From positions 248,001 through 312,000 of the forward strand of contig NZ_JACHXA010000001.1 in the NCBI RefSeq assembly GCF_014191775.1: 64,000 bases of DNA, given 5' to 3'. The notes beneath the pieces were generated by a model, which saw only the letters and a list, made by a program, of their open reading frames with translations, did no database searches and was not told the DNA's origin. The position numbers and the translations under genes were made by a program. Below, one piece after another: positions 27,359 to 34,460 of this stretch. The number at the start of each line of letters is the position of its first letter. Position 1 is the stretch's first letter. Source of the stretch: Limibacillus halophilus. GTDB taxonomy: Bacteria; Pseudomonadota; Alphaproteobacteria; Kiloniellales; CECT-8803.

Positions 27359-28699
27359 ATGGCGACGCGCCAATCCCTTTCACTCACCCAAGGCCAGCGT
27401 CAGCAGCTTGCAATGACGCCCCGCATGCGCCAATCGGTCGAGTTGCTGCGCATGAACAACCTCGAGATCGCCGGTTTTGTCGCGGCCCAAGTTGAGGGGA
27501 ACCCCTTTCTCCGCCAGGCTCTGCCAAAACGATCAAGCGGCGGCGGCACACGTCGGGAATCGTGGGGCGGGCAGACGCAAGATACCTCCAACTGGCAAGA
27601 TAATGCTGCCGACACGCCTACGCTCTACGGCCACCTGACCCAACAGATCAGGCTTTCGTTCAGCGAATCACGGGATAGCGCCATAGCGTTTCACCTTATG
27701 ACGCTCCTGGATGAACGCGGGTACCTGATGCCGGACTGGCGAGCCACATCGACCCATCTTTCTTGCACGCCAAAGCACGTAGAAAGTGTATTGAGCCGCC
27801 TGCAAAAACTAGAACCCACCGGTGTTTTCGCGCGCGATCTGGGTGAGTGCCTACGCCTTCAATGGCAGGAGCGAGACGACTGGTCGCCAGCCGCCGATAG
27901 ATTGCTGGATAACCTTTCCCTCCTGGCGAAACGCGATTACGAGGCCCTGGAAAAAACTTGCGGCCTCGATACTTCGGCGCTGAAGCCACTCATCACGGCG
28001 CTTCGGCGCTTGAACCCGAAACCCTTGAGTGATTTTGAGCCGCCGCAGCGCTTTACGCCGCCGCCTGATCTATTGGTCGAACGGCTCAACGGAGTTTGGC
28101 AGATCAGGGTGAATGACGCCGTATTGCCGCGCGTGCTGCTTGACGAAAGCTACGTACGCGAGATCAGAAGCGCGGCGCAGCGACGCCGGGACAAGGACTA
28201 TCTAGCCGAGCGCTTGCGCCATGCCCGATGGCTGACCCGCGCGCTGGATCAGCGAATGCGGACGCTGATGCGCGTCGCGGAAGCTATCTTCCAACGGCAA
28301 GCCCTCTTCCTGGATCAAGGCCCTGAGGTCCTCCAACCCTTGACCTTGAAGGAGATTGCCGGTGTCCTCGCGCTTCACGAATCAACCGTCAGCCGCTCCG
28401 TCGCCGACAAAACCGTTGAGACACCGCAGGGATTGTTCGATCTCCGCTTCTTTTTCTCCGCACGGCTAAAAAGCGAGGGTGAGACGATCTCAGCGACAGC
28501 AGTCCGGGCGCGGCTACGGCGATTGGTCGAGGAAGAACGACCCGATGGCGTTCTTTCTGATGCCGCCATCACCGAGCACTTGTGTGCTGACGGTATCTTG
28601 ATCTCACGGCGTACCGTTGCCAAATATCGAGAGTTACTGCGGATTCCAAGCGCGCCCCAGCGGCGAAGGGAGAAGAGGATGAGAACAACTCAATCGTAA
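27359..28699 (+). CDS. rpoN: RNA polymerase sigma-54 factor
   Basis: A 446-residue sigma-54. Region I is the Gln-rich LSLTQGQRQQLAMTPRMRQS; an abbreviated region II follows, then the core-binding domain, the HTH with HESTVSRSVADKTVETPQG, and the RpoN box at about 416-425, reading SRRTVAKYRE where ARRTVAKYRE is usual. The protein is shorter than the common 480-520 residues. It starts 5 bp after lptB and precedes hpf and ptsN, the classic rpoN neighbourhood, so it should be co-transcribed with the LPS genes. Confidence 0.95.
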   Translation: MATRQSLSLTQGQRQQLAMTPRMRQSVELLRMNNLEIAGFVAAQVEGNPFLRQALPKRSSGGGTRRESWGGQTQDTSNWQDNAADTPTLYGHLTQQIRLSFSESRDSAIAFHLMTLLDERGYLMPDWRATSTHLSCTPKHVESVLSRLQKLEPTGVFARDLGECLRLQWQERDDWSPAADRLLDNLSLLAKRDYEALEKTCGLDTSALKPLITALRRLNPKPLSDFEPPQRFTPPPDLLVERLNGVWQIRVNDAVLPRVLLDESYVREIRSAAQRRRDKDYLAERLRHARWLTRALDQRMRTLMRVAEAIFQRQALFLDQGPEVLQPLTLKEIAGVLALHESTVSRSVADKTVETPQGLFDLRFFFSARLKSEGETISATAVRARLRRLVEEERPDGVLSDAAITEHLCADGILISRRTVAKYRELLRIPSAPQRRREKRMRTTQS

Positions 28700-28849
28700 A
28701 GAATCGAGCACTGTGGCTTGACCAGAGGGGTCAGTCAGCGCTTAGTATTGACTCATCGAAAGGTCGCCCCTATGTTCGCGGCCTCGTTTGGAGGGGGAGC
28801 ATTGGAACCCTCATTTGCTGAGAGCCAAACACCACAATCCGGAAACGTC

Positions 28850-29449
28850 ATGCAAGTCTCTGTACAGGGCCGTCATGTCGATGTGAGCGATGCTTTTCGC
28901 AAGCACGTCGAGGAGGCGCTAGACACTATTCTCGACAAGTACTTCGGTGACGCAATCGAAGCTGCGGTGACCATCTCCCGCGAGGCACACCTCTTCAAGG
29001 TGACCATCTCCGCGCATATTGGTCACGAGGTCGATGCGATCGGTACGGCCGAGGCTGATCAGCCTTACGCCGCCTTCGATGCGGCGGCTGAGCACTTGGC
29101 CAAACGCCTGCGGCGCCACAAACGGCGGCTGCGCGACCATCGTCGAACGGATCGCGAAGCAACGGAAACGCTGCAGGCGCAGCACTACATTCTTCTTGGC
29201 GACGAGGCCGAGGAGTCTATCGGAACGAACGGTAGCGACGAGGTGGCAGAGGATTTGCCGCTGGTTGTCGCCGAAATGACGACGGAAGTTCCGACCTTGA
29301 CCGTGAGTCAGGCGGTAATGCGTTTGGATCTGGGTGATTTGGGCGCTCTTTTATTCCGCAACAGCAGCCATGGGGGTCTGAATATGGTCCACCGCCGTGA
29401 AGACGGAAACATCGGATGGATCGACCCACAGGGAAATGGCTCGAAATAA
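28850..29449 (+). CDS. hpf: Ribosome hibernation-promoting factor, long form
   Basis: The N-terminal S30AE domain starts MQVSVQGRHVDVSDAFRKHV and carries the basic helix AKRLRRHKRRLRDH that enters the 30S subunit. The C-terminal domain, from about residue 140 (VMRLDLGDLGALLFRNSSHG to the end), is the dimerisation domain of the long form that makes 100S ribosomes. ATG 28850 is preferred; the open frame runs back to 28718 without family-like sequence. It lies in the rpoN-hpf-ptsN order. Confidence 0.94.
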   Translation: MQVSVQGRHVDVSDAFRKHVEEALDTILDKYFGDAIEAAVTISREAHLFKVTISAHIGHEVDAIGTAEADQPYAAFDAAAEHLAKRLRRHKRRLRDHRRTDREATETLQAQHYILLGDEAEESIGTNGSDEVAEDLPLVVAEMTTEVPTLTVSQAVMRLDLGDLGALLFRNSSHGGLNMVHRREDGNIGWIDPQGNGSK

Positions 29450-31407: not shown

Positions 31408-31447
31408 ATCTCACGCTCCTTTTTTAGCCGTCTTCGTGAGCGCTCGC

Positions 31448-31900
31448 TCATTCCGCTGCCTTGCCGGTGATCGTCTGCGGCTTGGTCTTCGGATTCGACT
31501 TGATTTCGATGGTTTTGACCTCGGGCTCGCTCAATGGGCGCAACAGTTCTACGTGCAACAACCCGCTATCGAGCGTGGCGCCCGTAACCTCTATCCCCTC
31601 GGCCAGAACAAAATTGCGTTGGAACTGCCTAGCGGCAATTCCGCGATGCAGATAGATGCGCTCCTGGTCATCTGATTGCTTTCCACGGATCACAAGCTGT
31701 TTGTCCTCTATCTGGACTGACAGTTCATCCGGCTGGAATCCGGCAACGGCCAGCGTTATGCGAAGTCGATGTTCGCCAACCTGTTCTACGTTGTAGGGCG
31801 GATACCCGTCCCCGGCCGCCTTGCTGATGCGGTCCAGTGTGCGCTCGAACTCGTCGAATCCCAGCAACAACGGGCTATTAAATAAGGATAAGCGCGACAT
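31448..31900 (-). CDS. Small heat-shock protein Hsp20 (IbpA-like)
   Basis: A 150-residue class A alpha-crystallin-type chaperone. The N-terminal arm LSLFNSPLLLGFDEFERTLDRI and NVEQVGEHRLRITLAVAGF are IbpA-like, the alpha-crystallin domain runs from about 35 to 125, and the tail carries the KIEIK-type strand (TIEIKSNPK). GGAGGAGG precedes the ATG. Upstream lie a ROSE-like RNA thermometer and a sigma-32-like promoter, so control is likely both transcriptional and translational. It is co-transcribed with DUF1150. Confidence 0.95.
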   Translation of the reverse strand: MSRLSLFNSPLLLGFDEFERTLDRISKAAGDGYPPYNVEQVGEHRLRITLAVAGFQPDELSVQIEDKQLVIRGKQSDDQERIYLHRGIAARQFQRNFVLAEGIEVTGATLDSGLLHVELLRPLSEPEVKTIEIKSNPKTKPQTITGKAAE

Positions 31901-32016
31901 AGTCTAAAATCCTCCTCCGCATGAGCAAGGATGTGGGTCCGATCGGCTCTGACGATTATGGCGACGCACCAACGTCCGCTACGCAGCAACCGATTGTCAC
32001 CCCATACCGGCGGTGA
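31901..32016 (-). ncRNA. ROSE-like RNA thermometer in the hsp20 leader
   Basis: Read on the minus strand, AUCCUUGCUC (31932-31923), an AUGC loop and GGAGGAGGAU (31918-31909) form an imperfect stem. Here the UUGCU box faces the Shine-Dalgarno GGAGG with G.G and C.A mismatches, the hallmark of the ROSE family. Upstream, AUCGGUU (31994-31988) pairs with AGCCGAU (31948-31942), enclosing GACG/CGUC (31976-31973 with 31966-31963), which gives the multi-hairpin ROSE layout. Size and position before a small heat-shock gene also fit. Confidence 0.7.
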
Positions 32017-32024
32017 CTAATAAG

Positions 32025-32053
32025 AGATGGTGAAGCCGGTTAAACGGGTCAAG
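32025..32053 (-). promoter_or_regulatory. Sigma-32-like promoter of hsp20
   Basis: CTTGACC (32053-32047), a 14-nt spacer and CACCATCT (32032-32025) on the minus strand match CTTGAAA-N11-16-CCCCATNT at 5 of 7 and 6 of 7 informative positions. Transcription would begin near 32017 and leave a leader of about 117 nt that contains the thermometer. Confidence 0.6.
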
Positions 32054-33773: not shown

Positions 33774-33849
<76 letters not shown>

Positions 33850-33956: not shown

Positions 33957-34460
33957 TCATCGTTCCTCTTTCTCATCATCCAGATCGATGTCCAGATCAT
34001 CTTCGAGGTCGCCGTCGTCGAGCTCGTCGGCGTCGGCCAAGAGGTCGTCGTCGTCGTCGAGATCGCCATCATCCAGCTCGTCGTCTTCGTCATCGACCGG
34101 ATCTTCGGCGTCCAGGGTCGGTTTCAACTTACCGCCGCCCTCGACATCATCCTCGTCCTCGTCCGCGATATCGTCGTCGAGCTCTTCTTCCGCGAGCTCA
34201 TCCAAAGAAAGGTCGCCTTCGTCCTCGTCATCCTCGAGATCATCGATCTCATCCGATTCTTCGTCGTCGAGATCCTTCACCTTCGGTTTTACCTTCGGTT
34301 TCGGGGGTGTCGACGGCTTGACTCTGCGCGCGCGCAAGAACGCGTCGGGATCAAACTCCGTTTCACATTTGGGGCAGACGATTGGCGTCTTGCTGAAGTC
34401 GTAGTATTTGGTGCCACACGACTGACACACTCGCTTGGTTCCCCAATCTGCTTTCGCCAC
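33957..34460 (-). CDS. TIGR02300 family (FYDLN acid) protein
   Basis: The first 45 residues are a zinc-ribbon-like module: CQSCGTKYYDFSKTP and CPKCETEFDP supply four cysteines, with the YYDF of the family's FYDLN motif. From about residue 55 a Lys/Pro linker leads to roughly 100 residues dominated by Asp and Glu (with runs such as DEDEDD), surely disordered. Function is unknown; the acidic tail suggests a nucleic-acid mimic or a binding platform for basic proteins. The start is GTG with AAGGAGG 8 nt upstream. It stands alone on the minus strand. Confidence 0.92.
   Translation of the reverse strand: MAKADWGTKRVCQSCGTKYYDFSKTPIVCPKCETEFDPDAFLRARRVKPSTPPKPKVKPKVKDLDDEESDEIDDLEDDEDEGDLSLDELAEEELDDDIADEDEDDVEGGGKLKPTLDAEDPVDDEDDELDDGDLDDDDDLLADADELDDGDLEDDLDIDLDDEKEER

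Follow-up and report, generated by a model that had tools for sequence, protein, structure and literature searches.

The leader of the small heat-shock gene hsp20 described here is very probably a ROSE-like RNA thermometer carried on a sigma-32-type transcript of an hsp20-larA operon. The DNA analysed, hereafter the window, is a stretch of 64,000 nucleotides from Limibacillus halophilus, and the features of the operon and its leader are listed in Table 1. The original prediction had proposed a ROSE-like design together with a sigma-32-type promoter, and this is supported by the conservation of the leader, by compensatory pairing, by two shared hairpin designs, and by position, the leader being placed 5' of a small heat-shock gene as are the ROSE-like thermometers of PMC3669281. 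A PDB sequence search with hsp20 confirmed its sHSP relatives and yielded nothing beyond that.

Table 1. Positions in the window of the hsp20-larA genes, the leader and its predicted elements
Feature	Position	Strand	Details
-35 element CTTGACC	32047-32053	(-)	read from sequence; begins 153 nt before the start codon
-10 element CACCATCT	32025-32032	(-)	read from sequence; 14-base spacer after CTTGACC
hsp20 leader	31901-32017	(-)	three predicted hairpins; sigma-32-like promoter upstream
Hairpin I, GUCACC-G-CC-GGUAU-GG-GGUGAC	31996-32017	(-)	bulged G; predicted fold; putative mRNA 5' end
Middle hairpin	31942-31994	(-)	predicted fold; outer 7-bp stem AUCGGUU 31994-31988 / AGCCGAU 31948-31942, with inner hairpin
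Terminal ROSE-like hairpin AUCCUU-G-CUC-AUGCG-GAG-GAGGAU	31909-31932	(-)	UUGCUC anti-SD with bulged G, against GAGGAGG
Shine-Dalgarno region GGAGGAGG	31911-31918	(-)	read from sequence; within the terminal hairpin
hsp20, small heat-shock protein	31448-31900	(-)	PF00011, E 4e-17; start at 31900
hsp20-larA intergenic stretch, 40 nt	31408-31447	(-)	GCGCUC able to pair with the larA ribosome-binding site GGAGCG
DUF1150 / LarA-like protein, 72 aa	31189-31407	(-)	PF06620, E 1.9e-12; C terminus EPVSVH

When the leader was folded together with the AUG, three hairpins were predicted (32017-31996, 31994-31942 and 31932-31909), a number that lies within the two to four hairpins of PMC3669281, the middle one being a prediction alone. 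The 3'-proximal hairpin pairs a U(U/C)GCU box, imperfectly, with the Shine-Dalgarno region, again as in PMC3669281. It had been claimed that a UUGCU box lies opposite the ribosome-binding site with G.G and C.A mismatches; the pairing is indeed present and the mismatches are unnecessary, as both the minimum-energy and the comparative pairing leave one bulged G (UU-G-CUC against GAG-GA) and otherwise standard pairs. This terminal stem has 9 pairs and the AUG is 8 nt outside it. The loop-closing pair was C-G in 110, U-A in 15 and U-G in 11 of 136 cases. The outer 7-bp stem with an inner hairpin, also part of the original prediction, is found both in the sequence and in the predicted fold, and hairpin I, which that prediction had missed, has six pairs, a bulged G and then CC/GG. 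As for the leader of 117 nt, its sequence elements are all there and its length rests on a putative transcription start near 32017.

The leader would then work in the following way. When heat or unfolded proteins stress the cell, the heat-shock sigma factor would make the hsp20-larA mRNA, as the promoter match suggests, and at low temperature the terminal hairpin would keep the ribosome-binding site of hsp20 paired with the UUGCUC box. Going by ROSE elements studied elsewhere, warming may loosen the terminal hairpin and let ribosomes enter, and the pairing would loosen because the bulged G interrupts it. The other two hairpins probably contribute to folding or to the stability of the mRNA. LarA, by analogy, may then activate Lon.

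Taken alone the window makes a weak case. Its terminal hairpin gave a z-score of -1.45 with 15 of 200 shuffles folding equally well, the middle hairpin gave -1.07, and the whole leader, with a z-score of -0.47 and 54 of 200 shuffles equally stable, is not above shuffles. It is therefore the conservation in related leaders that raises this leader above chance. Related leaders were taken from a single genome-contig scan for the same kind of hsp20, and the best 80 of 332 loci plus the window make up the 81 best-match leaders referred to below. The strict box [CU]U[CU]GCUC was found no more than 60 nt from the start in 60 of these 81 best-match leaders; 200 dinucleotide shuffles averaged 1.5 such leaders and never exceeded 6. 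A looser box-plus-SD pattern was found in 78 of the 81. In control genes with a Shine-Dalgarno site (n=54) the loosest box pattern occurred in 7, a stricter one in 2, and the hairpin as we define it in none. Since the looser pattern is also present in 7/54 control genes we relied on the hairpin, which is defined by the bulged G, three inner pairs and at least three of four outer pairs. It was present in 75 of the 81 best-match leaders, whereas dinucleotide shuffles gave a mean of 2.2 and a maximum of 6. A second collection came from a draw over the whole class: of 190 genomes 97 had DUF1150, and the 96 loci taken (the window's own was left out) came down to 83 after 12 without hsp20 in the stretch and 1 at a contig end. 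Class-wide, the hairpin was present in 71 of these 83 hsp20-larA leaders compared to 2.9 in shuffles (maximum 9). It was lacking in 6 of the 81 best-match leaders and in 12 of the 83 class-wide ones. Five of the 83 overlap the 81-leader set, and in the other 78, which lie outside it, the terminal hairpin was found in 66. When the ribosome-binding-site half was kept intact in the shuffles, the hairpin arose in 6.4 (maximum 12) for the set of 81 and in 7.0 (maximum 14) for the set of 83.

A pairing register could be drawn in 60 of 63 non-redundant leaders. The anchored register used in the scripts was chosen to favour pairing, and the fair test is therefore one in which 3' halves are swapped among the leaders and the swapped sequences are re-registered. 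The outer pairs per row were 5.18 as observed, compared to 4.25 after swapping among the 60 leaders (sd 0.12, maximum 4.70 of 1000, z 7.8). Swapped 3' halves thus pair less than the native ones, which means that the two arms change together. RNAalifold on a MAFFT alignment of the leaders predicted zero pairs, probably because the loops and outer arms misalign. These results bear on whether the box-SD pairing simply follows from the high G content of the Shine-Dalgarno site and the GC-richness of the genome, without any role in regulation. The weak single-sequence z-scores and the occurrence of the loosest and the stricter box patterns in a few control genes would agree with that explanation, but the absence of the hairpin from all 54 controls against its presence in 75 of the 81 best-match leaders, and a swap test with z 7.8, make it extremely improbable.

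Upstream of the leader the sequence CTTGACC-N14-CACCATCT is present as originally proposed (32053-32047 and 32032-32025), and it is conserved among related leaders. The sigma-32 (RpoH) consensus used for scoring was CTTGAA-N13-16-CCCCATNT, and against it the window promoter scored 11 of 13. By sequence, the putative promoter of the window matches the sigma-32 consensus at the conserved distance. A score of at least 10 of 13 was reached in 68 of the 81 best-match leaders compared to 3.2 in base shuffles, and in only 4 of their reverse complements and 2 of their coding sequences. Class-wide, at least 10 was reached in 68 of 83 hsp20-larA leaders where 3.8 were expected, and in 63 of the 78 class leaders outside the 81-leader set. 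The design of hairpin I (stem-G-CC-loop-GG-stem, with a stem of at least 4) was found in 72 of the 81 best-match leaders compared to 5.8 in shuffles (maximum 12), in 63 of the 83 class-wide leaders compared to 4.7 (maximum 10), and in 61 of the 78 outside the 81-leader set; in both collections the stem sequences vary. Among distinct leaders, 128 of 155 had a promoter score of at least 10 and 111 of these 128 then had hairpin I after the promoter. In 69 of the 111 hairpin I begins 7-11 nt past the -10 box, and in the window this distance is 7 nt. Because hairpin I begins just after the -10 box, the mRNA probably starts with it.

In silico melting, which had been suggested as a check of the thermometer, gave no clear opening of the ribosome-binding site. 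For the leader plus AUG, the unpaired fraction of the site in the Vienna model rose only from 0.16 at 20 C to 0.28 at 55 C. Adding 30 nt of coding sequence removed the terminal hairpin from the minimum-energy fold and left the unpaired fraction nearly constant (0.22 to 0.25), and adding 60 nt reversed the trend, from 0.55 at 20 C down to 0.20 at 42 C. Nearest-neighbour folding leaves out non-canonical pairs, and we hold both this absence of melting in silico and the Rfam miss described below to be weak tests of the thermometer reading. An alternative explanation is that the hairpins are real and conserved, that the terminal one fixes a low rate of translation or protects the mRNA, and that temperature control comes from sigma-32 alone. 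A predicted structure that barely melts from 20 to 55 C and reverses its trend with 60 nt of coding sequence is what one would expect then, the promoter is conserved to about the same extent as the terminal hairpin, and hairpin I of the Pseudomonas ibpA leaders might, according to the part of PMC3669281 consulted, shield the transcript from degradation. However, the same source describes temperature-dependent translation for Pseudomonas ibpA leaders with the U(U/C)GCU box, which is the kind of design seen here, and the terminal hairpin keeps its bulge although a perfect stem would grip the site more firmly. We therefore regard this alternative as improbable and the ROSE-like thermometer as the better reading.

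A match to the Rfam ROSE covariance model, the other check that had been suggested, was not obtained: there was none in the window at the gathering threshold and none in the leader at E up to 10. Rfam at gathering on 20 loci (18 related ones and 2 from the window's genome) returned tRNAs only. The cut-off of RF00435 (ROSE), 45 bits, was passed in none of 61 genomes of the window's order, and in one of the 61 there was a match below it, of 38.5 bits, upstream of a paralogue. RF02523 (ROSE_3) had no match in 58 order genomes or in the window and likewise none in 14 named control genomes. As RF00435 was also silent in these 14, plasmid sHSP leaders were used as the positive control, and all 5 named ones reached the RF00435 cut-off, the weakest with 45.1 of 45 bits. 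In paralogous sHSP leaders of the order (13 and the window genome's own) RF00435 gave 31.0-38.5 bits in 6 of 14 and, at E up to 1, nothing in the remaining 8. Several of these leaders bear the terminal hairpin of the ROSE consensus and yet score 38.5 bits at best. RF00435 is thus a narrow model, and a missing match at the window says little. The Rfam ROSE consensus has the same two unpaired Gs as the window leader, including the bulged G of hairpin I followed by CC/GG, and the likeness extends to the position in an sHSP leader, to a middle hairpin and to a terminal hairpin UUGCUC-loop-GGAGGA with its G unpaired. The two differ in that the model does not score the window and in that its terminal stem extends over the AUG, whereas the 9-pair stem of the window does not. 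A covariance model built on just the terminal hairpin (R1), with the window among its training sequences, was also tried and rejected as too weak for searching. The window was its top match in its own genome, with E 0.065, and of eight further stretches of that genome matched by R1, a start codon lay close to the match in only two.

An hsp20 match was found in 57 of 59 genomes drawn over the order. The looser box was present in 53 of 56 orthologous leaders from order genomes other than the window's and in 37 of 40 order leaders outside the 80-locus set. The three order leaders without an anti-SD box (G002, G003 and G004, or L102, L133 and L113) are all of one genus; larA still follows hsp20 in them, and the loss of the box is possibly natural. 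The paralogous IbpA-like sHSPs were sampled as 25 of 60 rows down to E 5.5e-24 (24 and the window genome's own). In their leaders the looser box was found in 20 of 25 by script and was absent in 2, and the 3 that were left unscored, as their start was not located, contain it by eye. Hairpin I was seen in 22 of the 24 sampled paralogous leaders and in the window genome's own paralogue, these being observed counts without shuffles. The bulged-G hairpin I design is common to both sHSP paralogue groups and to Rfam ROSE. The paralogous leaders of the order share both hairpin designs with the window and several of them read CAUGUUGCUCA..GGAGGAUAUGG like the Rfam consensus, but in several the terminal stem is closer to the start codon. 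The paralogue in the window's genome (L085, G000:C2:488175-488603) has a UCGCU box and hairpin I, and its own sigma-32-like promoter can be made out by eye. The DUF1150 of the window is the only DUF1150 match in this genome, and the paralogue there is thus without one.

Of 120 non-identical loci, 108 have DUF1150 after hsp20, and of these 108 proteins 100 end in H and 93 in [VLIA]x[VLIA]H. In Caulobacter, LarA (DUF1150) is an allosteric activator of Lon whose last residues V86, V88 and H89 matter, and larA is predicted to lie in an operon with sHSP2 that is reported to be sigma-32 regulated (PMC10665427, as far as consulted). The window DUF1150 ends in V-S-V-H, like the V-x-V-H of LarA, and is downstream of an sHSP gene; NCBIfam NF052376 matches it below the cut-off (30 of 80 bits). 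From its sequence it appears to correspond to LarA, and from the operon context hsp20 of the window would be the counterpart of Caulobacter sHSP2. The window thus resembles the Caulobacter shsp2-larA operon of PMC10665427 in gene order, in a sigma-32 type of control (predicted, for the window) and in the V-x-V-H end.

Control of DUF1150 by the thermometer, which had been anticipated for the case that the two genes are coupled, is plausible. Among 108 loci, hsp20 and larA are separated by at most 10 nt in 29, with several overlaps, and by more than 60 nt in 56; the gap in the window measures 40 nt. The small or negative gap in 29 loci favours coupling, and in relatives with overlapping or nearly touching genes translation of larA is likely to be coupled to that of hsp20. 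Pairing of GCGCUC with the ribosome-binding site of larA is possible in the window, though not significant (z -0.93). The thermometer might instead act on hsp20 alone, with larA co-transcribed and translated from its own site whatever the temperature, an explanation that competes with the larA part only and that we consider evenly balanced. It agrees with larA having its own ribosome-binding site and with the gaps of 40 nt in the window and of more than 60 nt in about half of the loci, and a ROSE terminal design ahead of larA itself was rejected as not beyond chance (3 of 108 compared to 0.97 expected, maximum 4). The loci with gaps of at most 10 nt speak against it, as does the GCGCUC pairing in the window with the reservation just given. 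Apart from this, a bulged-G hairpin design occurs in 13 of 63 hsp20-larA stretches of at least 40 nt compared to 1.4 in shuffles (maximum 6), examples being L030, L053, L059, L061 and L069; in the first three the hairpin includes, by eye, the larA ribosome-binding site.

More tentatively, and with somewhat less than even confidence, we suggest that across Alphaproteobacteria the ROSE thermometer may be the front end of a chaperone-plus-protease circuit, in which warming would free the sHSP message for translation and, through coupling, that of LarA as well; an RNA switch would then gate Lon activation directly, in addition to sigma-32. The ROSE-type switch is of a known kind; what is modestly new is its connection with Lon activation. 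In 71 of the 83 class-wide loci tested, a probable RNA thermometer now precedes the gene for LarA, described in 2023 in a sigma-32 operon, and direct temperature gating of Lon activation becomes testable. A known thermometer class is also extended to a clade and a gene group where the public ROSE model misses its cut-off, and the conserved bulged-G hairpin I and bulged-G terminal hairpin offer enough structure for a better covariance model.

A ROSE element ahead of an alphaproteobacterial sHSP gene was to be expected, as PMC3669281, in the part consulted, deals with short ROSE-like thermometers that combine sigma-32 control with the U(U/C)GCU box, states that over 40 candidates had been predicted in alpha- and gammaproteobacteria, and counts Caulobacter among the bearers of classical ROSE; this Caulobacter element may be that of the hsp20-larA operon. 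The Pseudomonas ibpA thermometers of the same source are like the window leader in combining sigma-32 with a translational thermometer (predicted, for the window), in the U(U/C)GCU box, in a short terminal hairpin and in an unpaired AUG, and they differ in having two hairpins where three are predicted here and in belonging to another bacterial class and to an IbpA gene. ROSE elements also lie upstream of rhizobial sHSP operons, and the genes are RpoH-dependent in S. meliloti (PMC3989490, in part). Five terms covering RNA thermometers, leaders and translational control are absent from the main text of PMC10665427, and PMC8119881, which deals with protein quality control in Caulobacter, mentions sHSP2 but, in the part consulted, no thermometer. 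No thermometer on a larA operon was found in the literature, which was covered in part and through open-licence papers only, so that novelty is unproven.

Elsewhere in the window, a FYDLN_acid family protein (TIGR02300) with a long acidic tail is encoded at 33957-34460 (-) and adjoins a tRNA-Ala gene at 33774-33849. A ribosome hibernation-promoting factor (TIGR00741) is encoded at 28718-29449 (+), directly after 27359-28699, which we take to be rpoN.
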